A stretch of 49,292 nucleotides of DNA from the NCBI GenBank assembly GCA_947382875.1, contig CANDBG010000014.1, positions 1 through 49,292 on the forward strand. Direction: 5' to 3'. Made by a program: the position numbers and the translations under genes. Source of the DNA: an uncultured Oscillibacter sp. GTDB taxonomy: Bacteria; Bacillota; Clostridia; Oscillospirales; Oscillospiraceae. Numbering within the stretch: position 1 is the first letter of the stretch; each line of letters begins with the position of its first letter. Positions 10,240-19,463 of this stretch are shown piece by piece. The notes below the pieces were generated by a model, which saw only the letters and a program-made list of their open reading frames with translations, was not told where the DNA came from and searched no databases.

Positions 10240-10266
10240 GCGGCGGCAAAAATGCCGCCGCTTTTT
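10240..10266 (+). terminator. ligA terminator
   Basis: A 9-bp stem GCGGCGGCA / TGCCGCCGC (10240-10248 with 10253-10261), an AAAA loop and TTTTT. Its T-run touches the stop codon of the convergent cotJC end. Confidence 0.85.
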
Positions 10267-10457
10267 CATTTGTCGAAAGAAGGGTTCATATAGTAGACGT
10301 TTTTTTCGTTCATTTTATCCTTTGCAAGTCTTAATCCTTCGCCGAACCGCTGGAAATGCACAATCTCCCGCGCACGGAGGAACTTGATGACATCATTCAC
10401 ATCCGGGTCATCGGACAGCCGGAGGATATTGTCATAGGTTACGCGTGCTTTCTGCTC
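10266..10457 (-). CDS. cotJC: cotJC 3' exon (C-terminal third of the spore coat manganese-catalase-like protein)
   Basis: The minus strand encodes the last 62 residues of CotJC (starting QKARVTYDNILRLSDDPDV and ending YYMNPSFDK), without a start codon or ribosome binding site of its own. Upstream the CotJC homology stops abruptly at the Glu codon inside CTCTG 10455-10459, and element A begins. Joined to the middle exon at 14995, the frame is restored without loss or gain. The ligand histidine of the dimanganese site (REIVHFQRF, His169 of the rebuilt protein) lies here. Alternatively it is a remnant of an inactivated gene; the exact in-frame ends argue against that. Confidence 0.85.
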   Translation of the reverse strand, partial: EQKARVTYDNILRLSDDPDVNDVIKFLRAREIVHFQRFGEGLRLAKDKMNEKNVYYMNPSFDK

Positions 10458-10459
10458 TG
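10455..10459 (-). repeat. Element A attachment core, left copy (CTCTG)
   Basis: The plus strand reads CTTTCTG-CTCTG-ATGCACC. The second copy is at 14995-14999 in CATC-CTCTG-CTGCC. Recombination between them gives CTTTCTG-CTCTG-CTGCC, the expected cotJC sequence. The element-side arms are imperfect inverted repeats (ATGCACCACTGTAA.GCACAAC here, ATGCTATTTGTAAAAAGCAAC at the other end). On the cotJC strand the core includes the codon of the conserved metal ligand Glu136. Confidence 0.75.
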
Positions 10460-10480
10460 ATGCACCACTGTAAGCACAAC

Positions 10481-12703
10481 CTACTTTTGCTGGGCTTGTT
10501 TTTGTTCCAGGGTACGTTCCATCAGCTCCAGCAGAAGGGGAATGTCGATTGGTTTCGCCATATGCGCGTTCATACCGCTTTCCGCCGACATTCTGCGGTC
10601 TTCGTCGAAGGTGTTGGCCGACAGTGCGATGATCGGAATGCTTGCCAGCGCCGGGTTTTCCAGCGCCCGAATGGCGCGCGCGGCGCTGTGACCGTCCATA
10701 ACGGGCATTTGCAGATCCATCAGAATCAGGGCATAATCGCCGGGCTGGGAGGCTTGTACCTTATCCAAGGCAATCTGACCGTTTTCTGCCGTGTCCACCA
10801 GGAAGCCCTCGTCTTCCAGCAGGGCAACCGCAATTTCCATATTTAAGGGGTTGTCCTCCACGACCAGAATCCGCCGCGGTTCTTCCGCTTTCATCCGTTC
10901 AGCGGTCATGGTTTCGGCCTGCTGCTCGGTCTGCATACGGAGACTCAGGGAAACAATAAAGGTACTGCCCTTGCCGGGCGTGCTTTTGGCCTCGATGGTG
11001 CCGCCCATCATATCCACAAGGTTTTTGACAATCGGAAGCCCCAGGCCCGCGCCCTGAATACCGCTCATGGTGGTATTTTTCTGACGCTCAAAGGGTTCAA
11101 AGATATGTCCGATGAAATCCTCGCTGATGCCGATTCCCGTGTCCTCGACGATGAATTGATAAGCGGCATAGAGACGGGTGGCGTTCTGTTCGGCAAACGT
11201 AACGGTGACGCGTCCGCCGGGTTCGGTATATTTGATGGAATTGTTAATCAGGCGAAGGAGGACCTGGGTCAATTTTTCCTGGTCAGCGAAAACGGTAGGA
11301 TGTTCCAAACCGGTAAACGCCACGGAAAACGCTATGTTTTTCTCCGCGGCTTGCGGCAAGCAGCGTTCCTGCACCTGATGAGCGACGTCCAGAAGGCTGC
11401 ACGCAGTTTCCACCATGTGGATACTGCCGGATTCAAACCAGGAGATTTCCAGAACATCGTCCATCAAATGCAGCAGCTGTGCGCTGGAGCGTTCAATGGC
11501 TTCCAGATAGCTTTGCAGACGCTGTGGATCGTCCTTGTGGGTTTTGGCGAGGGAGGTGAAGCCGACAATTGCGTTCAGGGGCGTCCGCATATCGTGGGAC
11601 ATATTGGAGAGGAAGGTATTGCGGGCCAGGTTGGCGGCCTTGGCCTGATGGAGCGCGTTTTCCAAAATTTGATTACGCTCCTTTTCCTGGCGGATTTCCT
11701 CGTCGACGCTGCGAAGTCCGAACATGATTTGCGAAGCCGTTCCCTTTTCGCCTACGTTAACGATAAAGAGCTGCAAGTATTTGATATCCCCATCCTTCAG
11801 GATGCGGAAGTTTGCATGAAAGGATTTTTGACTTGCCAGGGTCTGGTGGATATAAGCAGGACTCACGGACTTGGAAAAAATCTCGCGGTCTTCGGGGTAG
11901 ACCCAGGTTTTGCAGTAATCGTCCGCAAAGCCGGAAAACTGGCGCACCTGGAGGTCTTTGCCGAACTGGTATTCCGGACAGCTGCCCACCCGGTAGGGCT
12001 GGATAAAATCCTCCTGCAAATCCACGTAAAACATGGACTCGTAGTTGATGCTGAGTCCGCCGATCAATTCCAGGCGGCGCTGCAATTCGTCGTTGATGTG
12101 TTCCAGGGCAAGATTGTATTCCTCGGACTGGCTTTGCAGCTGCTGCTGGCGGAGGCTGTTTTCATCCAGAAGGGCGGCCCGTTCTTCGATTTGATGGATT
12201 CGTTTTTCGGTTGCGTCGGCGATAAACACATAAAAAACATCACCGGCGCTGCTTTCGAGGAAGTGGCCATAGTCTTCCACCCAGCAGATTTGTCCATCTT
12301 TCCGAATGATGCGGTATTCCACATAATCCAGGTCATACTGGCTGTTGGTAATCTGCTCCCAGATGCTGTCTTCCACATCCTGATAATCGTCCGGGTGGAC
12401 GAGGCCGCGGAAGGAATTGCCGGTCAAGTCACGAAGTTCCTCCTCCGTCTCACAGCCGAAAATGCGCAGAAGCGCCCGGTTGACATAAAGGATTTCCTGC
12501 TGTCCGCGTGCGCGGTAGATTAGAAAGCCGCCGGGCATTTGATCGGTGAAATGCCGGATCTGCTTTGCGTTTTCGCGGTCCTGTTCATTGAGCAAGAGCG
12601 GCCGCGTATGGGCCGGTTCCTGGTTGGAAGCCTCCATCTCGCCGGACGCCGAAAGATCAACTCCAGTCAGAAGATATTCAATCAAGCTGTGATTATCACG
12701 CAA
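10481..12703 (-). CDS. Cytoplasmic hybrid sensor histidine kinase (PAS-PAS-HisKA-HATPase-REC)
   Basis: This 740-residue protein has no membrane segment. A PAS domain spans about 53-165 (FLIYRARGQQEILYVN ... ITRKDGQ-like core), with a second PAS-like region at about 218-335 and a coiled coil at 335-360. Then come HisKA with His370 in the MSHDMRTPLNAIVGF box, HATPase with NNSIKYTEPGG and VEDTGIGIS and GAGLGLPIV, and a C-terminal receiver domain with Asp663 (LMDLQMPVMDG). The TTG start 12703 has GGGAGG eight bases upstream. It is cargo of element A with its own sigma-A promoter, so it would be lost from any cell in which the element is excised. The partner protein is unknown. Confidence 0.9.
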   Translation of the reverse strand: MRDNHSLIEYLLTGVDLSASGEMEASNQEPAHTRPLLLNEQDRENAKQIRHFTDQMPGGFLIYRARGQQEILYVNRALLRIFGCETEEELRDLTGNSFRGLVHPDDYQDVEDSIWEQITNSQYDLDYVEYRIIRKDGQICWVEDYGHFLESSAGDVFYVFIADATEKRIHQIEERAALLDENSLRQQQLQSQSEEYNLALEHINDELQRRLELIGGLSINYESMFYVDLQEDFIQPYRVGSCPEYQFGKDLQVRQFSGFADDYCKTWVYPEDREIFSKSVSPAYIHQTLASQKSFHANFRILKDGDIKYLQLFIVNVGEKGTASQIMFGLRSVDEEIRQEKERNQILENALHQAKAANLARNTFLSNMSHDMRTPLNAIVGFTSLAKTHKDDPQRLQSYLEAIERSSAQLLHLMDDVLEISWFESGSIHMVETACSLLDVAHQVQERCLPQAAEKNIAFSVAFTGLEHPTVFADQEKLTQVLLRLINNSIKYTEPGGRVTVTFAEQNATRLYAAYQFIVEDTGIGISEDFIGHIFEPFERQKNTTMSGIQGAGLGLPIVKNLVDMMGGTIEAKSTPGKGSTFIVSLSLRMQTEQQAETMTAERMKAEEPRRILVVEDNPLNMEIAVALLEDEGFLVDTAENGQIALDKVQASQPGDYALILMDLQMPVMDGHSAARAIRALENPALASIPIIALSANTFDEDRRMSAESGMNAHMAKPIDIPLLLELMERTLEQKQAQQK

Positions 12704-12753
12704 CTGTGCGCCCTCCCTCGTAGCAGAATGCCATTAATCATTCATTATCCATC

Positions 12754-12782
12754 ATCATACCATACTTTCAGGAGTCTGTCAC
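12754..12782 (-). promoter_or_regulatory. Promoter of the element A histidine kinase
   Basis: Minus strand GTGACA (12782-12777), a 17-base spacer and TATGAT (12759-12754). It indicates expression in vegetative cells, independent of the recombinase gene. Confidence 0.6.
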
Positions 12783-12835
12783 CATAATTTCCTTAATTTC
12801 CTGAATTTTTGGAGGAAGCGTTTTCCAGGTTTTGC

Positions 12836-12872
12836 AAAAAAAGCAGTGCCGCGCAGAGGAGCGTGGCGCTGC
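12836..12872 (-). terminator. Terminator of the 93-residue ORF
   Basis: Minus strand stem GCAGCGCCACGC / GCGCGGCACTGC (12872-12861 with 12854-12843, two mismatches) followed by a run of at least seven T residues. Confidence 0.7.
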
Positions 12873-12889
12873 TTTTGGTTGAGCGGCGT

Positions 12890-13171
12890 TTAACCGTGTT
12901 CGATTTCGTCGGCGATGCGGTCAATTTCGTCGGCGATGCGGTCAATTTCGATTCTCAGCCATTCCAGCTTTTTTTGCAGGACCTGCCGGTCGACGTCGCT
13001 GTCGCTGGCGGACAGACGAGCCAGGGCCAGCATTTGGCGAAGACGCAGCTCGATTTGATTCAAGGCATCCTCGACGGCCTCGGAGAGCGGGGAAGGGAGA
13101 GGCTGGTTCCAGTGTTCATCCTTTTCGCCGCCGGATGGCGTTGGAAGGGCTGTAATTTCTCGGTCATCCAT
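12890..13171 (-). CDS. Hypothetical 93-residue protein with helical C-terminal repeats
   Basis: No family is recognised. The N-terminal 30 residues are Pro- and Gly-rich and likely disordered. The rest is a continuous amphipathic helix ending in a tandem IDRIADE repeat, produced by a 21-bp DNA duplication (12904-12948). GAGG lies about 11 bases before the ATG. It has its own promoter (TTGCAA / TATACT) and terminator, so it is an independent single-gene unit inside element A. A helical, acidic small protein could be a regulator of the element, but nothing in the sequence shows this. Confidence 0.6.
   Translation of the reverse strand: MDDREITALPTPSGGEKDEHWNQPLPSPLSEAVEDALNQIELRLRQMLALARLSASDSDVDRQVLQKKLEWLRIEIDRIADEIDRIADEIEHG
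12904..12948 (-). repeat. 21-bp tandem duplication in the 93-residue ORF
   Basis: Two consecutive 21-base units with the core TTTCGTCGGCGATGCGG encode the repeated IDRIADE heptad. Confidence 0.8.
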
Positions 13172-13207
13172 TGGATCAGGTTCCTCATTTCCAGAGTAAT
13201 ATAAAAA

Positions 13208-13236
13208 AGTATAGCATAGAAAGAGGAAACTTGCAA
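13208..13236 (-). promoter_or_regulatory. Promoter of the 93-residue ORF
   Basis: Minus strand TTGCAA (13236-13231), a 17-base spacer and TATACT (13213-13208). Confidence 0.65.
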
Positions 13237-13261
13237 CTCAGAGTGAGCTTTTGGGCCTGGG

Positions 13262-14803
13262 CTAAAAATTCCAATGAATTTCAACAGGCGGGCTTTTTTC
13301 TCCCGGGGCGCGTTTTCCGACAAGGATAAATTCTATCAAAAAATCCACCATTTCCCGCGTCAGGCGTTGGGGAGAAAGGAAAGGGGGGGCGGTATCTTCG
13401 TTGGCGGCCTGGGTGTTTAAGGCTTCAAGCTGTTCCCGGGTATCTTGAAGCTGCTGTGTCAGGCTCTCACGTTCTGCTGTGAGGCCGTCCAGAAGGCGGT
13501 TAAAATCGGTTTCTGTGATTCTGCCGGAAGCCCGGTCCAGGTATAGGGCTTGAATGCTCTTGAGATATGCAGTATCCTTTTTTTCATAAGCGGCCAGACG
13601 GTTCAGGAGAGCGTCCCTTTGCCGCTGTAAGCCGTTTCTGTACGGGAATTTTTCAGCCAGGAGACCGGCATCCAGATATTGCGTACAAAGGCATTGCAGC
13701 TCGCTGAGAACCATACCTTCCAGCTTTTCTACGGCGATAAAGCTGCCGGTGCAGGCGTTCTTGGCAACGCGGCGGGTTGGACATTGCAGATAATGCCGTC
13801 CGCGGTTTTTGGAGGAACGCAGAGTATAACCGCAGCAGGCGCAGTGCGTTTTCCCGGCGAAAAGACCGATGCTGCCGCCGGAAAACGGTTTTGCCCGCTG
13901 GACTAGAAGCGTCTGCGTCTGATTCCAGAGTTCCAGACTGATGATGGCCTCATGGGTATGCTCCACCCGGTACCAAAGACTTTTCGGCCGGGGACGGTTT
14001 TTCTTGGTCTTGTAGGACGCGCTTCCATATTTCCCTTGGACCATGTTGCCGATGTACATTTCGTTGGAAAGAATACTGGCGATAGCGGGATATTTCCAAA
14101 GCGAGCCGGTTTTTCCTGCGGGCGGGCGGACGCAAATTCCATGCAGACGCTTGTATTCGGAAGGATTCGGGATACCCCGTTCATTCAGCATTCGGGCGAT
14201 GGCGGTTTTGCCGTACCCCTGTACAAAGAGCGCAAAAATTTCCCGGACAATCGCAGCAGCGTCCTGATCAACGAGCAAGCGGCCTTTCTGCGATGGGTCC
14301 TTTTGGTAGCCGTAGAGGGCGGAGGAGCCGATATGAAAACCGTTCTCCCTGCGGTTCACCAGCACGCTTCGGATGTTTTTCGACATATCCTCCAAATACC
14401 ATTCATTGACGAGTCCATTGATTTGCCGGGATTTTTTATTTCCATCGTTGTTGGTGTCGGCGTTGTCCACAACGCTGACAAACCGGATTCCCCAGAGCGG
14501 AAAGAGGCCATGGAGGTACTTTTCCACCAGCTCCAGCTCACGGGTAAAGCGGGACTGTGTTTTACAAAGGACGATATCAAACCGTCGCAGTTCCGCATCT
14601 CGCAGCAGCCGGCAAAAGGCTGGGCGGCTGCGGTCCGCACCGGTATAGTCGTCATCGCTGTAAATATCGTACACATCCCACCCCTGTGTTTGCGCATATT
14701 GCAGCAGCAGCGCTTTTTGGTTCTGGATACTGCCGCTGTCGTCTGTATTTTGCCGTTTGTTCCGGTCTTCTTCAGACAGGCGGCAATAAATAGCGGCTTT
14801 CAT
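13262..14803 (-). CDS. Large serine recombinase of element A
   Basis: This predicted site-specific recombinase would integrate and excise element A. The 513-residue protein has the resolvase catalytic domain with nucleophile Ser10 (AAIYCRLSEED) and CKTQSRFTREL, then the recombinase domain (GYGKTAIARMLNERGIP), a zinc ribbon (CACCGYTL ... YLQCP ... NACTG) and a long coiled coil at about 395-470 typical of large serine integrases. It is complete. Its ATG lies inside the end of a 49-residue ORF (32-base overlap), so translation is coupled. Compared with recombinase B the sequence is quite different, so the two elements are not duplicates. Confidence 0.93.
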   Translation of the reverse strand: MKAAIYCRLSEEDRNKRQNTDDSGSIQNQKALLLQYAQTQGWDVYDIYSDDDYTGADRSRPAFCRLLRDAELRRFDIVLCKTQSRFTRELELVEKYLHGLFPLWGIRFVSVVDNADTNNDGNKKSRQINGLVNEWYLEDMSKNIRSVLVNRRENGFHIGSSALYGYQKDPSQKGRLLVDQDAAAIVREIFALFVQGYGKTAIARMLNERGIPNPSEYKRLHGICVRPPAGKTGSLWKYPAIASILSNEMYIGNMVQGKYGSASYKTKKNRPRPKSLWYRVEHTHEAIISLELWNQTQTLLVQRAKPFSGGSIGLFAGKTHCACCGYTLRSSKNRGRHYLQCPTRRVAKNACTGSFIAVEKLEGMVLSELQCLCTQYLDAGLLAEKFPYRNGLQRQRDALLNRLAAYEKKDTAYLKSIQALYLDRASGRITETDFNRLLDGLTAERESLTQQLQDTREQLEALNTQAANEDTAPPFLSPQRLTREMVDFLIEFILVGKRAPGEKSPPVEIHWNF

Positions 14804-14921
14804 TGGTTGTCTCCAACTGTTGAATCAGCTTCGCCCATACGTAGGTAAAGTGTTCTGTGGTAGTTTCAGAGGTGCCGTTCTGAAAAACGCTTTTGCAGAT
14901 TGCTTGTCGTTCTTCCTGCAT
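14772..14921 (-). CDS. Small ORF coupled to recombinase A (candidate directionality factor)
   Basis: A 49-residue ORF begins MQEERQAICKSVFQNGTSET and ends ESRYLLPPV. AAAGGAG sits 10 bases before the ATG. Its last 32 bases overlap the recombinase start. It is unrelated at a glance to the small ORF of element B, but shares size class, position and coupling, and both contain a short W-AKL or W-QRGVLLALKEL helix. Large serine integrases need a small recombination directionality factor for excision, often encoded nearby. The role is inference only. A loosely sigma-E-like sequence (CTTCTAT, 14 bases, CATAACCT) lies upstream at about 14945-14973. Confidence 0.6.
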   Translation of the reverse strand: MQEERQAICKSVFQNGTSETTTEHFTYVWAKLIQQLETTNESRYLLPPV

Positions 14922-14994
14922 CGACGTTCAACTCCTTTCAGAAAAGGTTATGCAGTTTCCGGCAGGATAGAAGTTGCTTTTTACAAATAGCATC

Positions 14995-14999
14995 CTCTG
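14995..14999 (-). repeat. Element A attachment core, right copy (CTCTG)
   Basis: Second copy of the five-base core, in CATC-CTCTG-CTGCCAAG on the plus strand. The cotJC side continues with the middle exon. Confidence 0.75.
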
Positions 15000-15216
15000 C
15001 TGCCAAGTCTTCGGTAAGGTCGCCGATCAGGTCGCCCGTGACCTGCATGGAGGAGGCGGACCAGGGAAAGCCGGAAGCAAATTGAGGGTATACGCCCGCG
15101 GTGTGGTCAACGAAGTAAGTGTCGAACCCGGCGGTACGAATCTGTTCTTCGGTTAGATTTCGGGTGAGCTGGTGAACGAGTGTTCCGACCATTTCCAGAT
15201 GACCCAGTTCCTCTGT
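14995..15216 (-). CDS. cotJC: cotJC middle exon
   Basis: The minus strand encodes CotJC residues 63-136 of the rebuilt protein (TEELGHLEMVGTLVHQLT ... LIGDLTEDLAAE). Homology breaks at both ends exactly at the recombination cores: GTACC 15215-15219 towards element B and CTCTG 14995-14999 towards element A. It holds the predicted dimanganese ligands Glu65 and His68 (EELGH) and Glu136, the very last codon. Reading past the junction gives element sequence (DAICKKQLLS) and a stop. An internal ATG at 15192 could be mistaken for a start, but it has no ribosome binding site. Confidence 0.87.
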
Positions 15217-15219
15217 ACC
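15210..15219 (-). repeat. Element B attachment core, left copy (CCTCTGTACC)
   Basis: This direct repeat differs by one base from CCTCCGTACC at 18709-18718; the invariant part GTACC is the minimal core. The variable base is the third position of a Thr codon (ACA here, ACG at the other copy), so either crossover product encodes the same protein. Confidence 0.75.
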
Positions 15220-15266
15220 CAGAGGTTATCTGAAATAGAGCCATGCCAACAGATGAAATACAGGAG

Positions 15267-15295
15267 TTGAATGGTATAGAGCGATGTGGTATACT
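15267..15295 (+). promoter_or_regulatory. Promoter of the orphan NIF3-insert gene
   Basis: TTGAAT (15267-15272), a 17-base spacer and TATACT (15290-15295), 48 bases before the GTG start. Confidence 0.6.
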
Positions 15296-15342
15296 GGCTT
15301 CAGAAAACCCGAATCAGACGTTTGAAGAAGGAGCGAAGCGCA

Positions 15343-15675
15343 GTGGATTTTTCGTATTGCAAGATCGAAGTGTATCTTCCGGAGACACATTTTTCCGCTT
15401 TACAAAAAGCATTGCAGAAGGCAGACGCAGGGCATATCGGGAAATACGATTCCTGCCTTTCTTACAGCAGGGTAACGAGCTGCTGGCGGCCTTTGAGCGA
15501 TGCACAGCCTTATATTGGACAAACGGGCGAGGTCAGCCAGGAAACAGAGTTGAAGGTGGAAACGGTTTGTTTTACGGAAGCAGTGAATCGAACAGTCGAA
15601 GCGATAAAGCAAATACACCCTTATGAAGAACCGGTGATCAATGTAATTCCGCTGTATCGCACCAGTTTTGATTGA
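15343..15675 (+). CDS. Stand-alone NIF3-insert (YqfO PII-like domain) protein
   Basis: This 110-residue protein matches the domain that is inserted in long NIF3/YqfO proteins: IEVYLPETHFSALQKALQKA, then the GHIGKYDSC motif, FRPL-like WRPLSDAQPYIGQTGE and a C-terminal HPYEEPVINVIPL. As a separate protein it resembles small YqfO/CutA-like proteins of unknown function; the fold is related to PII and CutA1. The GTG start has AAGGAG nine bases upstream. It is the first gene of element B. The chromosomal nif3 gene in this window lacks this domain. Confidence 0.72.
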   Translation: MDFSYCKIEVYLPETHFSALQKALQKADAGHIGKYDSCLSYSRVTSCWRPLSDAQPYIGQTGEVSQETELKVETVCFTEAVNRTVEAIKQIHPYEEPVINVIPLYRTSFD

Positions 15676-15745
15676 TGCAATGAATGATTGATGAGCGATC
15701 GATGCAAGATAGATGAACGATCGACAAAATGATTGATGATTGATG
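15669..15745 (+). repeat. GATTGATG / GATCGATG repeat tract
   Basis: The octamer GATTGATG occurs at 15670, 15686, 15731 and (overlapping) 15738, with variants GATCGATG at 15697 and GATCGA at 15719. The tract fills the gap before the Fic gene. Related words (GTGATTGATGAAAA, GAGTGATGA) recur within the Fic gene at 16558-16675, where they encode the acidic linker. It could be a binding array for an element protein, or slippage-derived sequence. Confidence 0.6.
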
Positions 15746-15805
15746 TATAGTATATGTGAAAGAAAGCGAGTAAATCAGAAAGTCTTTACAAAGAGCGAGG
15801 CTGAT

Positions 15806-16903
15806 ATGAGAAATCAAAGACCAACATTTGAAATAACCAACGAAATCATTAGCCAAGTGATGAAGACTGCGGAGCTGGTGGGGGAACTGACCGTTTTGGA
15901 CCGGCTTGCGGCCAATTCCACTTGGCGACGCCGGAACCGTGTTCGCATGATATATGGGTCTCTGGCATTGGAGCAAAACGCTTTGACTCTGGAACAAGCG
16001 ATGGCCCTGACAGACGGCCGCCGGATCATTGCGCCGCTGAAGGACATTGCGGAGTGGAAAAATGCATGGGAGGCATACGAAGACCTTGCAAGGCTCGACC
16101 CATTTTCGATAGATGCCCTTTTGGATGTTCACCGGACGATGATGCACAGCTTAGAAGGGGAGATGGGGGTATTTCGTCCCAAAAAGGTAAATCTTGTCGA
16201 TGAATCGGGACAAATTCTGCATTTTGGCACCTTACCGGATTACTATTCAAAGCTCGTAGCGGAGCTGCTGGACTGGGTAAAAAACGATGAAATGCCGATG
16301 TTGGTAAAAAGCTGTGTATTCCGTTATGAATTCGAGCGAATTCATCCGTTTGCCAACGGAACGGGACGGTTGAGCCGTTTGTGGCACACGCTTTTTCTGA
16401 TAAAGTGGAACCCGTTGTTTGCCTGGATACCGGTAGATGCTGTAATACAAGAGCGGCAAAAGGAGTATTACAAGATCATCAATGTTTCCAATGATTCAGG
16501 GGAAACTGTGAGCTATATTCGATTCTTGCTTGCATCAATCAATACATCGCTCGCAAGAGTGATTGATGAAAATGAGCGATATGAGGGATGTAAGAGTGAT
16601 GGAATTGTAATCAATGTGATTGATGAAAAAGATGAGAATGATGTGCGTATGAGTGATGAGAGTGATGAATTGAAGCCTCCAGAAGACCGAACAGAGGAAC
16701 AAATGGAGGGGCGAAATATTCCGCGCTGGGAGGAAGTACAGCAATTTCTGAGCAGCCATGAGCTGGTGCGAAACGCTGATATTCGCACTCTTTTTGGGGT
16801 GTCGCCTGCTACGGCAAACCGCATTTTAGCAGGGTTGGCCACCGAAGGCAAGCTGGTGAAATGTCATGAAGGAGGGCATTGGGCTTACCGTCTGCGAAAA
16901 TAA
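15806..16903 (+). CDS. Fic family protein with variant active-site motif and C-terminal winged helix
   Basis: Fic proteins usually transfer AMP to target proteins. In this 365-residue protein an N-terminal inhibitory-helix-like motif (SLALEQN, Ser52 to Asn58) precedes the Fic core. The active-site loop reads HPFANGTGRLSR (180-191), where the usual HPFx[D/N]GNGRxxR has Thr in place of the second Asn. The catalytic His and both Arg are kept. A low-complexity acidic linker (about 255-310) leads to a winged-helix domain at about 312-362 (ADIRTLFGVSPATANRILAGL). ATG 15806 has GAGG five bases upstream. It is cargo of element B; a toxin or regulatory role is possible but unproven. Confidence 0.85.
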   Translation: MRNQRPTFEITNEIISQVMKTAELVGELTVLDRLAANSTWRRRNRVRMIYGSLALEQNALTLEQAMALTDGRRIIAPLKDIAEWKNAWEAYEDLARLDPFSIDALLDVHRTMMHSLEGEMGVFRPKKVNLVDESGQILHFGTLPDYYSKLVAELLDWVKNDEMPMLVKSCVFRYEFERIHPFANGTGRLSRLWHTLFLIKWNPLFAWIPVDAVIQERQKEYYKIINVSNDSGETVSYIRFLLASINTSLARVIDENERYEGCKSDGIVINVIDEKDENDVRMSDESDELKPPEDRTEEQMEGRNIPRWEEVQQFLSSHELVRNADIRTLFGVSPATANRILAGLATEGKLVKCHEGGHWAYRLRK

Positions 16904-16971
16904 CGCAGGATTTCAAAAAAGAGGCAAAAAGTCTTCATCGTTTGAATATCCTTGAACAAAGGAGGGAGAAC

Positions 16972-17169
16972 ATGAAGGTAAAATTTGTTCAGGTCATGCA
17001 AGATCGGAAAGTTACCCCTGAAACAGACCCTGAATTTTGGCTCGATTGTCAGCGGGGCGTGTTGCTGGCGTTAAAGGAGCTGGGGCTGTTGAATGAGACT
17101 CAGTGCCGTTCTGCGGAAGAAATCCTATGGAAACAGAGCAGCGCAGTTACGAGAAAATCATATGATTAA
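16972..17169 (+). CDS. Small ORF coupled to recombinase B (candidate directionality factor)
   Basis: This 65-residue protein begins MKVKFVQVMQDRKVTPETD and has a helix WLDCQRGVLLALKELGLL. AAAGGAGGGA five bases upstream of the ATG is the strongest ribosome binding site in the element. Its final eight bases overlap the recombinase ATG (TATGATTAA), so the two are translationally coupled. The parallel arrangement in element A makes it a candidate excisionase or recombination directionality factor. It could also be an unrelated helper that sets recombinase dosage. No known family is recognised. Confidence 0.68.
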   Translation: MKVKFVQVMQDRKVTPETDPEFWLDCQRGVLLALKELGLLNETQCRSAEEILWKQSSAVTRKSYD

Positions 17170-18706
17170 GGTTGCGTCTTACTGCCGTGTATCCACAGAC
17201 CGGGAAGACCAGGCAAATTCTTTTGAAAGTCAGCAGCGGTATTTCAAGGAATACATCAGCCGTCAAAAGGGCTGGGAGCTGTACGCGGTCTATGCCGACG
17301 AGGGTGTCACAGGTACATCTACGAAAAAGCGCGACGCATTTCACCGCATGATGCACGATGCCAGTTCCGGCTGTTTCCGGCTGATTCTCACAAAAGAGGT
17401 CAGCCGGTTTTCCCGTAATATTCTGGATGCCATTGCCTATACCAGGGAACTGCGTGGGTATGGCGTAGGCGTTTTGTTCATGAACGACAGCATCAACACG
17501 CTGGACCCGGATGCAGAATTGCGATTATCCATTATGGCGTCCATCGCCCAGGAGGAGAGCCGCCGGACGTCAAGCCGTGTAAAGTGGGGGCAGACACGCC
17601 GGATGGAACAGGGGGTAGTGTTTGGACGGTCGCTGCTGGGTTACGATGTCAAAGACGGAGGAATGACCGTCAACCCGGAAGGGGCGGAGATTGTAAAGCA
17701 AATTTTTTACAAATACGGCATAGAGAAAAAGGGCACGACAACGATTGCAAGGGAGCTGCAGGAGGCGGGATGTAAAACCCGGCAGGGCGCTGCGGAATGG
17801 TCAAACAGCCATATCGTCAAGATACTGAAAAATGAAAAGTATGTCGGTGATTTGGTGCAGAAAAAAACCTATACGCCGGATTACCTGAGCCATGTGAAAA
17901 AATATAATCATGGGGAGGAGGAAAAGGTAATTGTCCGCAATCACCATGAGCCGATAATAAGCCGGGAATTATGGGAGTTGGTTCAATCCGAATTGAAAAA
18001 GCGGAACCGAAGATCCGGAGGCGGTCACGGAAACCGCTATTTATTCTCTGGAAAAATCCGGTGTGGCGAATGCGGGGCGTCTTTTGTATCGCGAACGAAA
18101 AAACGGAAAGATGGTACTGCCTGCAAACGCTGGGGCTGTTATACCGCCGTTTCAAAGGGCAGCGGACATAGGTCCAACGGGTGCGGTATCGGCTGGACGC
18201 TTCGGGATGACATGGCGCTGGATGTTTTGAAGCAGGCCATGGAAATGCTCCAAATGGACCGGGAAAAGCTTACGGCGCAAATGCTCCAAGCCATCCAGGG
18301 CGCAATCAGCCAAGGGCGGCGAGGGGCGGACACACCCGAAATTCTAGCCCGTGAGCTGGACCGTCTGGCAGAAAAAAAGGACGCCGTTCTGGACGCCTTT
18401 TTTTCCGGAAGCATATCGAAATCGGACATGAAGCGCATGAACGAGCGATACGACCACGAACTGAATGCACTGCAAATCCGTCTGCAAGCGGCAAAAAGGC
18501 TTCCTGAAACCATAGAAAATCAGGAAGTTCAGAAACAAATACTCGATATCGTCAACGGTTTGACAGAAAGCAATGCGTTCTGCAAGAATCTTTTGAACAC
18601 TCTGACTGTCTATCAGGGCGGAAGGGTAGAGGTACGTTTGAACAATCTGCCGCAAGTGTGGGTTTTTCTGGTAGAGAACGACCGGGAAAAATACGGTTCG
18701 GTTTGA
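17162..18706 (+). CDS. Large serine recombinase of element B
   Basis: This predicted recombinase of 514 residues is responsible for integration and excision of element B. The catalytic domain has nucleophile Ser11 (VASYCRVSTDRED), LTKEVSRFSRN and the E-helix motif AQEESRRTS. It is followed by the recombinase domain (GYDVKDGG, TTTIARELQEAG), a zinc ribbon (CGECGASF ... CYTAVSKGSGH ... NGC) and a coiled-coil C-terminus. ATG 17162 is preferred over an upstream ATG at 17093 because the family N-terminus is MIKVASYCR. The stop lies eight bases from the right attachment core, the usual position for such integrases. Confidence 0.94.
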   Translation: MIKVASYCRVSTDREDQANSFESQQRYFKEYISRQKGWELYAVYADEGVTGTSTKKRDAFHRMMHDASSGCFRLILTKEVSRFSRNILDAIAYTRELRGYGVGVLFMNDSINTLDPDAELRLSIMASIAQEESRRTSSRVKWGQTRRMEQGVVFGRSLLGYDVKDGGMTVNPEGAEIVKQIFYKYGIEKKGTTTIARELQEAGCKTRQGAAEWSNSHIVKILKNEKYVGDLVQKKTYTPDYLSHVKKYNHGEEEKVIVRNHHEPIISRELWELVQSELKKRNRRSGGGHGNRYLFSGKIRCGECGASFVSRTKKRKDGTACKRWGCYTAVSKGSGHRSNGCGIGWTLRDDMALDVLKQAMEMLQMDREKLTAQMLQAIQGAISQGRRGADTPEILARELDRLAEKKDAVLDAFFSGSISKSDMKRMNERYDHELNALQIRLQAAKRLPETIENQEVQKQILDIVNGLTESNAFCKNLLNTLTVYQGGRVEVRLNNLPQVWVFLVENDREKYGSV

Positions 18707-18708
18707 CG

Positions 18709-18718
18709 CCTCCGTACC
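18709..18718 (-). repeat. Element B attachment core, right copy (CCTCCGTACC)
   Basis: Direct repeat partner of 15210-15219 with one mismatch. On the cotJC strand it reads GGTACGGAGG and includes Gly62-Thr63 of CotJC. Confidence 0.75.
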
Positions 18719-18901
18719 AATATCGGTCAGCAAACCTTTCAGTTCGGCGTAGGGCATGGAATAACGCTGACTGAGATAACGCAGGGAAGCGCCGAGTTCT
18801 CCGTCCGGCCCGCCGTACTGAGAGATAATCACCGCGGCCAGTTTTGGGTTCGTGTTTTTGATTTTGACCGGATATTGCAGTTTCTTTTCATAGACAAACA
18901 T
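18713..18901 (-). CDS. cotJC: cotJC 5' exon (start of the split gene)
   Basis: The minus strand encodes CotJC residues 1-63 (MFVYEKKLQYPVKIKNTNPK ... LLTDIGT) with the ATG overlapping the cotJAB stop (TGATG). The predicted dimanganese ligand Glu35 (GPDGELGASL) is here. Beyond Thr63 the frame runs into element B (ASNRTVFFPV) and makes only an aberrant C-terminus ending near 18344. Joined to 15213 and then 10454 it gives a 198-residue protein, close to the 189 residues of B. subtilis CotJC. CotJC is a spore coat protein related to manganese catalases. Confidence 0.9.
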
Positions 18902-19368
18902 CAGTCATTACCTCCCACATCCCAGGGCCACGGGTCTTTCAGCCAGGCGTAGCCGTCTTCCGGGGTCAAGTCCGTGGACAGCAAGGGACCATACATTTTT
19001 TCGTATTTTTCCCGTCCTTCTTTTGCCAATTTCAGGTAGGACCAATAGAGCTGTAAAACCTCCTGATCGTTGGCATGGGTATCGAGATAAAGGTTCAGCT
19101 CCTTGACGGCAAAATCAAGGGCCATCAGCTCCACCAGAGCGGTATTCGCCAGCTTGGTACGCGCCTGGATTGCGGCCTTGAAGGGCAGGTCCAGGCCGGG
19201 AAACAGCGTACCGGTCTGAAGGGCCTCCGCACGGCTGAAGCGGGGCGGATTGTTTTCCTGCATCGGGATATAAGGAAACGCCAGAGGGGCACAGCAGCCC
19301 GGAAGGGAGCCGTCACCGGGGCGGCAGGAGCCTGGGGCTGGCGTGGGAGTTTGTTCAGGTTTCTCCAT
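18901..19368 (-). CDS. CotJA-CotJB fused spore coat protein
   Basis: This is a 155-residue protein. Residues up to about 70 resemble CotJA: a Pro-rich start, then LAFPYIPMQENN and FSRAEALQTGTLFPGLDLPF. Residues about 75-155 resemble CotJB: LVELMALDFAVKELNLYLDTH, LYWSYLKLAKEGREKYEKMYGPL and the terminal PWPWD. In B. subtilis these are two genes; here they are one frame with no internal stop. ATG 19368 follows AAAGGAGG by nine bases. The stop overlaps the cotJC start. The CotJ proteins form a coat or inter-coat assembly of the spore and are made in the mother cell. Confidence 0.82.
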   Translation of the reverse strand: MEKPEQTPTPAPGSCRPGDGSLPGCCAPLAFPYIPMQENNPPRFSRAEALQTGTLFPGLDLPFKAAIQARTKLANTALVELMALDFAVKELNLYLDTHANDQEVLQLYWSYLKLAKEGREKYEKMYGPLLSTDLTPEDGYAWLKDPWPWDVGGND

Positions 19369-19421
19369 CAGGGAAAGCCTCCTTTTGAGAGAGTCGCGCG
19401 GGAGCGTATCCCGTGCAATCC

Positions 19422-19437
19422 ATTGTATGCCATGAAG
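19422..19437 (-). promoter_or_regulatory. Possible sporulation promoter of the cotJ operon
   Basis: The minus strand has CATACAAT (19429-19422), which matches the sigma-E/sigma-K -10 element CATA---T. The -35 region (GGACCAT 14 bases upstream) is a poor match, so the assignment is tentative. The known cotJ operon is sigma-E dependent. Confidence 0.4.
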
Positions 19438-19463
19438 CGGCGGATGGTCCATGCGGGGAATTC

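Follow-up and report, generated by a model that had tools for sequence, protein, structure and literature searches.

The coat gene cotJC as a three-site target of serine-recombinase elements in Clostridia, with excision in the mother cell predicted

The interrupted cotJC gene and its two elements

We analyzed a 49,292-nucleotide stretch of DNA (the window) from an uncultured Oscillibacter sp. (assembly GCA_947382875.1, contig CANDBG010000014.1), in which the spore coat gene cotJC lies in three pieces on the minus strand. Joining the pieces gives one open frame of 198 codons with its stop codon at 10266-10268, and removes segments of 3499 bp (element B) and 4540 bp (element A). A previous reading made from the letters only (the sequence-only reading) had proposed this arrangement. 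It was confirmed by the frame join and by three matches to the Pfam family PF05067, and the removed lengths and the border repeats GTACC (B) and CTCTG (A) were also found as proposed. The PF05067 matches in the host assembly (113 contigs, 87.5% complete) are exactly these three exons. A full-length cotJC elsewhere, which the sequence-only reading had named as an observation that would speak against it, was not found by the PF05067 search of this assembly.

Residues 1-177 of the joined protein align to solved manganese catalases. E35, E65, H68 and E136 align with positions of the Lactobacillus plantarum manganese catalase that we take to be metal ligands, as expected for a CotJC/manganese catalase protein. 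Immediately upstream of cotJC, the CotJA and CotJB domains occur in a single open reading frame (ORF). Since Spo0A and SpoIVA were both detected in the assembly, the latter inside the window, the host looks like a spore former.

Each element interrupts a sporulation gene with a frame-keeping junction at a short direct repeat, which is clear for element B, and each encodes its own serine recombinase (RA and RB). RA and RB both possess the Resolvase, Recombinase and zinc-ribbon domains of a large serine recombinase; the sequence-only reading had called both intact. A YCRxS motif, presumably that of the catalytic serine, is visible in both, and both match the phage integrase family phrog_95. In the Pfam scan of the two elements, only the recombinases, the kinase, the Fic-domain protein and the CutA1-like ORF were detected, and no phage structural or replication genes; the PHROGs scan left out the kinase and Fic ORFs. 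An intein or a group II intron was rejected, because the Pfam scan found no such domain in either element. The G+C content is 52.8% in element A and 48.5% in element B, against approximately 55% in the flanks. The ATG start codon of RB at 17162 overlaps the 3′ end of the 65-amino-acid ORF in front of it. The main cargo of element A is a hybrid sensor kinase. The coordinates are collected in Table 1.

Fifteen matches to RB-like serine recombinases, including RB, RA and several partial ones, were observed on several contigs of the host genome (G000). Other host genes may be interrupted likewise.

Table 1. Features of the cotJC region of the window. Letters of the direct repeats are those of the plus strand.
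Feature	Position	Strand	Basis
cotJC exon 1, residues 1-63	18713..18901	-	frame join and PF05067 match
cotJC exon 2, residues 64-136	14995..15213	-	frame join and PF05067 match
cotJC exon 3, residues 137-198 and stop	10266..10454	-	frame join and PF05067 match
ORF with CotJA and CotJB domains, upstream part of the cotJ operon	18901..19452	-	Pfam scan
Element B, 3499 bp, inserted at site 2	15214..18712		frame join, border test
Direct repeat GTACC, one border of element B	15215..15219		
Direct repeat GTACC, other border of element B	18714..18718		
RB, large serine recombinase of element B	17162..18706	+	Pfam domains
65-amino-acid ORF in front of RB, candidate recombination directionality factor	16972..17169	+	
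Fic-domain protein, cargo of element B	15740..16903	+	Pfam; best PADLOC model SoFic
CutA1-like ORF, cargo of element B	15286..15675	+	22.1 bits, just below the Pfam cut-off of 22.4
Element A, 4540 bp, inserted at site 3	10455..14994		frame join, border test
Direct repeat CTCTG, one border of element A	10455..10459		
Direct repeat CTCTG, other border of element A	14995..14999		
RA, large serine recombinase of element A	13262..14803	-	Pfam domains
49-amino-acid ORF overlapping the start of RA, candidate accessory factor	14772..14921	-	
Hybrid sensor histidine kinase (PAS, HisKA, HATPase, receiver), cargo of element A	10481..12703	-	Pfam
93-amino-acid ORF without family match, in element A	12890..13171	-	

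Junctions, insertion sites and distribution

Twenty-five junctions were placed in 23 loci, namely the window and 22 others with elements shorter than 20 kb. The joins keep the frame by construction, and a separate test of the words shared by the two borders of an element served as the non-circular control. As a comparison, 798 mismatched pairs were made by mixing borders across sites. One locus (L079) was left out of this test, its join was redone, and it was re-tested as genome G111. The longest shared border word lay in the frame-keeping register at 20 of the remaining 24 junctions and at 9 of 14 further ones, as opposed to 7.3% of the controls. In-frame shared runs of at least 5 bases were detected at 22 of the 24 and 10 of the 14 junctions (6.0% of the controls). 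For element B of the window, the longest word common to both borders (GGTAC on the coding strand) is exactly in the frame-keeping register. For element A, the in-frame shared word has 5 bases, and a longer word of 6 bases is in another register. Since 5-base in-frame runs occur in 6.0% of control pairs, the CTCTG repeat alone is weak evidence; what carries element A is that other species show the same break again. The position of the crossover itself is ambiguous by a few bases, with 11 equal-scoring cuts for B and 6 for A.

No exon contains a stop, and the rejoined cotJC was open to its natural end in 22 of the 23 loci (180-211 codons); that of L079 was also open once rejoined, making 23 of 23. 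A serine recombinase ORF was found in all 25 elements, two of which (L066 and L084) have a short one. The junctions lie near E35 (site 1), E64/E65 (site 2) and E136 (site 3) of CotJC, residues that align with conserved manganese-catalase positions.

The distribution of the breaks was surveyed with PF05067 in the family, the genus and the class. Among 300 genomes drawn from the family, 237 had a match. The 81 whose best match was weaker than approximately 1e-46 were picked by eye, 80 of these were listed piece by piece (G056 was left out), and six of the 80 were dropped as unclear or not cotJC (G003, G024, G233, G259, G272 and G280). Approximately 74 of the 300 genomes (74 of the 80 listed) have a cotJC break at one of three profile positions, at about 28-33 (site 1), 61-66 (site 2) and 147-152 (site 3). 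Sites were assigned by eye, and some breaks lie at contig ends. The break is at site 1 in 20 genomes, at site 2 in 34 and at site 3 in 11; nine have two breaks (five 1+2, one 1+3 and three 2+3). Some genomes show one cotJC half only, sometimes at a contig end, and one piece is missing from the listing of G277, G203, G052 and G142.

In the genus, 69 of 86 genomes had a match. Intact cotJC, whose presence in relatives the sequence-only reading had raised as a question, was found in 31 genomes, and cotJC was broken at a site in 34 (seven with one half only), that is, in 34 of the 66 genomes having cotJC; the orthology of the split pieces to cotJC was examined on fetched DNA in 18 of these and rests on the profile match in the other 16. 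The remainder comprises three genomes with a paralogue only and one other. This paralogue, 34-40% identical to cotJC, exists in other genomes and was excluded from the cotJC counts. Sites 2 and 3 are both occupied, as in the window, in G330 and G345 of this genus and also in G111, and sites 1 and 2 in G360 of this genus.

In the class, 257 of 393 genomes had a match. Forty-four genomes showing at least two weak matches were chosen by eye, which left aside G642 and the weak single matches. Among these listed candidates, 36 are consistent with a cotJC break at a site and count as further cases. The 36 do not include G000, G020 and G066, which were already known to be split, nor the unclear candidates G447, G494, G512 and G751. 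In G436, G591, G607 and G651 the pieces are contiguous; these were rejected as inserts and represent a frameshift or gap. cotJC is a recurrent target of serine-recombinase elements, at three sites. The two-insert gene of the sequence-only reading is real; as a description it was too narrow, since the window is one case of this class-wide pattern.

In a tree of 30 recombinases, the site-3 enzymes formed one group (100/100) and the site-1 enzymes another (99/99). The site-2 enzymes fell into two groups, a large one with RB and a second with a slightly shifted junction (L075 and L078), which requires two origins; several forks are open. Overall, the recombinases group by insertion site. RA and RB are in different site-specific groups, in agreement with the earlier claim of two independent elements. 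We examined the best 80 of at least 559 confirmed RB relatives in named genomes, with Oscillibacter, Pseudoflavonifractor, Anaeromassilibacillus, Ruminococcus and Lachnospiraceae among the record titles. In 71 of these 80, the fetched stretch contains a cotJC exon that is broken at site 2, and in 59 it lies within 400 bp.

Related recombinases also occur on contigs called viral by IMG/VR. All three RB relatives found there accompany cotJC pieces (pieces of 35-36 residues lying between sites 1 and 2 for two of them, and residues 59-137 for the third). Eight loci with RA relatives were found there at 58% identity or more, one of them partial; six have a cotJC piece broken at site 3, five within 260 bp and one 3.3 kb away. 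One contig with an RA relative beside a cotJC exon is 69 kb long.

More complex arrangements were also detected. G518 (L291-L294) has three inserts and four exons that join to a 200-amino-acid cotJC frame, with a site-2 junction lacking a clear repeat. In G378 (L133:2001-12889, on a 4,410,036-bp contig), exon 1 and cotJAB are inverted relative to exons 2 and 3, and a site-1-type recombinase adjoins the latter. Joining by inversion gives 198 codons, and the inverted arrangement is approximately 10.4 kb long; from this layout, the gene would be rebuilt by inversion only. In G345 (L134 and L135), exon 2 is on another contig approximately 25 bp after ligA and exon 3 is upstream of exon 1, which represents a permuted gene or a misassembly. 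Exon 3 is on the opposite strand in G143, and cotJC pieces on one contig are approximately 675 kb apart in G725 and 157 kb apart in G409. The scrambled cases may be ordinary rearrangements with a breakpoint in the element, or misassemblies.

Selection on the split gene and control of the recombinases

Joined cotJC sequences were compared by nonsynonymous (dN) and synonymous (dS) divergence. For L067 and L068, dN was 0.005 and dS 0.44; the whole 4.8-kb element is collinear at 84.9% identity, and the flanks are 89-95% identical. The values were 0.014 and 0.66 for L065 and L066 (dN/dS approximately 0.02), and 0.011 and 0.82 for L080 and L081 (approximately 0.01), and in both of these pairs the 5′ and the 3′ parts are constrained. 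At dS values of 0.1-1.0, the median dN/dS was 0.12 for intact pairs (258), 0.15 for intact-split pairs (63) and 0.055 for split pairs (6). Thus, split cotJC is not less constrained than intact cotJC. By these values, strong purifying selection acts on split cotJC in other species.

The element of L080 and L081 is 89.8% identical between the two, compared with 83.3% for the upstream flank containing the 5′ exon. Because the element is somewhat more similar than this flank, its transfer is conceivable. This site-3 element (L080:4036-10401, collinear with L081) carries a polyamine operon, a host-type metabolism. The six ORFs scanned include AdoMet decarboxylase, Orn/Lys/Arg decarboxylase, spermidine synthase and arginase family members, in addition to a saccharopine-dehydrogenase-like ORF and a second decarboxylase.

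Homologues of the 65-amino-acid ORF of the window, 60-70 amino acids long, precede the RB-type recombinase in 63 of the best 80 named loci. ORFs like the 49-amino-acid one of RA were recognized by eye in five of 18 other RA relatives (L058, L061, L082, L179 and L180). Neither small ORF of the window elements gave a PHROGs or NCBIfam match. The small ORFs are candidate directionality factors.

Promoters were scored with a motif and weights of our own making, derived from the Bacillus subtilis sigmaE consensus. A first scan used simple shuffles and was replaced by one with dinucleotide shuffles. A sigmaE/K-like promoter scoring at least 17 was present in 33 of the 63 stretches around the start of the small ORF, as opposed to 2.8% of the dinucleotide shuffles. 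For non-redundant regions upstream of the recombinase, the same score was reached in 12 of 83 for RB (1.67 expected) and 5 of 15 for RA (0.80 expected), and coding controls were near expectation (2 of 83 with 1.47 expected, and 0 of 15 with 0.33 expected). With simple shuffles, enrichment was only mild in the regions upstream of cotJA, which served as the positive control, and was absent from a control region approximately 1.8 kb upstream of RB. These scores support a mother-cell sigma control of the recombinases at the level of the families.

Interpretation and comparison with known systems

We consider that the cotJC elements probably represent DNA splicing in the mother cell, like that of skin, SPbeta and gin, acting on a new target gene, with multiple inserts and a wide distribution; we assign this a probability of nearly four in five, and we infer both that excision occurs and that it is limited to the mother cell. 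Among the mechanisms considered, programmed mother-cell excision has the most support. In the vegetative line, cotJC would be split into three pieces and silent. In the mother cell during sporulation, a small element-encoded partner would turn each large serine recombinase to excision, and each recombinase would then recombine the short repeats at its own borders, free its element as a circle and join the exons. The full CotJC, a manganese-catalase-like coat protein, would thereby be made in a cell destined to lyse, while the forespore would keep its split copy.

Several observations weigh against this interpretation. The exons are inverted or far apart in several genomes, and simple excision is impossible there. 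Neither a joined junction nor an excised circle, both foreseen by the sequence-only reading, was seen; two attP patterns gave 0 matches in public viral contigs. Five of the 38 junctions have no in-frame run of more than 3 bases (L074, L083, site 3 of G345, site 2 of G518 and site 1 of G532). The 63 promoter stretches include near-copies, and the promoter-like matches of the window itself are weak (13.9 for B and 15.4 for A). Because these are weak and the enrichment is that of the families, mother-cell control in the window is only predicted. Element stretches of L072 and L073 are 88-96% identical at a cotJC dS of 1.58, and the elements of L069 and L070 are far more diverged than their cotJC. 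Some elements thus appear to have moved or been replaced, contrary to simple vertical descent. Every intact relative compared with the window species has a dS above 1.5, so that the split cannot be dated there. Finally, the host assembly is a draft.

Excision might be real and not developmental, that is, stochastic or dependent on the growth phase as in active lysogeny or phase variation, with selection acting through the cells carrying the joined gene. The RA relatives beside cotJC exons on viral contigs, among them the one of 69 kb, and the movement of some elements between species fit such a scheme, and for yin of Clostridium botulinum excised forms are reported at all time points (PMC10747680). 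However, mother-cell-type promoters are enriched upstream of the recombinase operons as families, even though they are weak in the window, and we regard this alternative as unlikely.

The elements might otherwise be recent parasites of a cotJC that is dispensable, dead and not yet decayed. In Clostridioides difficile and B. subtilis, relatives of CotJC appear to be dispensable or of mild phenotype, as discussed in two reports (PMC11222575 and PMC12122855), and the undatable insertion in the window species would permit a recent arrival. Against this, the split state is common to three species pairs with dN/dS of approximately 0.01-0.02, every rejoined frame is open and every element has a recombinase ORF, which makes a dead gene quite improbable. 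An assembly artefact or population mixture, which a draft of 113 contigs could suggest, is very unlikely indeed, since the same architecture with different elements is present in the single-contig genomes G098, G498 and G545 and double splits at sites 2 and 3 occur also in G330, G345 and G111.

Beyond excision in the mother cell, a broader generalization is possible rather than probable. cotJC may be a general DNA-splicing locus of the class Clostridia, in which three sites on codons beside metal-ligand motifs are each used mainly by their own recombinase lineage, with up to three inserts. Some mother cells might even unscramble the gene by inversion (G378), as a bacterial counterpart to scrambled genes, and the elements could house host operons (L080).

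In the literature consulted, the programmed excisions of sporulation are a handful of single cases, with one element per gene. Roughly half of the genomes of this gut genus in which cotJC was found have the gene interrupted, as do many other Clostridia. These dozens of natural replicates bear on how a parasite integrase joins a developmental programme and why the cell tolerates it, and also on how several recombinases can work within one gene and not cross-react. The genomes themselves show the attachment sites of these recombinase families directly. In the literature searched, a search with most subscription papers and all bioRxiv preprints outside its scope, no report of a split cotJC was found.

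The sequence-only reading had named skin in sigK and SPbeta in spsM as precedents. In both, the recombinase is reportedly under mother-cell control and excision is precise. The comparison is apt; gin in gerE is the closer one, as no phage-type gene besides the recombinases was found in the cotJC elements. Skin and SPbeta are prophage-derived and occur one per gene, whereas cotJC, a coat enzyme gene, has up to three inserts at three fixed sites. In the fdxN element, excision by XisF in heterocysts is a developmental excision by a large serine recombinase. That system differs in phylum and cell type, and RA (72.9 bits) and RB (116.6 bits) are far below the XisF cut-off (NCBIfam NF041201, 375 bits).

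As with the cotJC elements, skin is described as a serine-recombinase element interrupting a mother-cell gene (PMC4191935). The interrupted sporulation genes named in the literature consulted are sigK, spsM, spoVFB, spoVR, gerE and yabG (PMC5595907, PMC4191935 and PMC10747680). For the prophage phi027 of C. difficile, the likeness is that its attachment site adjoins a cotJC relative; in the available portions, the CotJC-like gene is described downstream of attR, and no split or rebuilt gene is described (PMC12122855 and PMC11222575). Yin in yabG of C. botulinum is a single element in a sporulation gene with a recombinase, a putative small directionality factor and a putative SigK promoter. It differs in that it is described as unique to one strain, in addition to its excised form at all time points (PMC10747680).

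Gin, in gerE of Bacillus cereus ATCC10987, is a single 28.6-kb insert with three recombinases (PMC5595907). Like the cotJC elements, it is described there as lacking phage genes and as interrupting a mother-cell sporulation gene, with a serine recombinase and a short direct repeat in the coding sequence. Gin has a small directionality factor, and gerE is rebuilt in sporulation; for cotJC, the factor is a candidate and the excision is predicted. The cotJC gene of the window differs from the gin system in its two unrelated small inserts.

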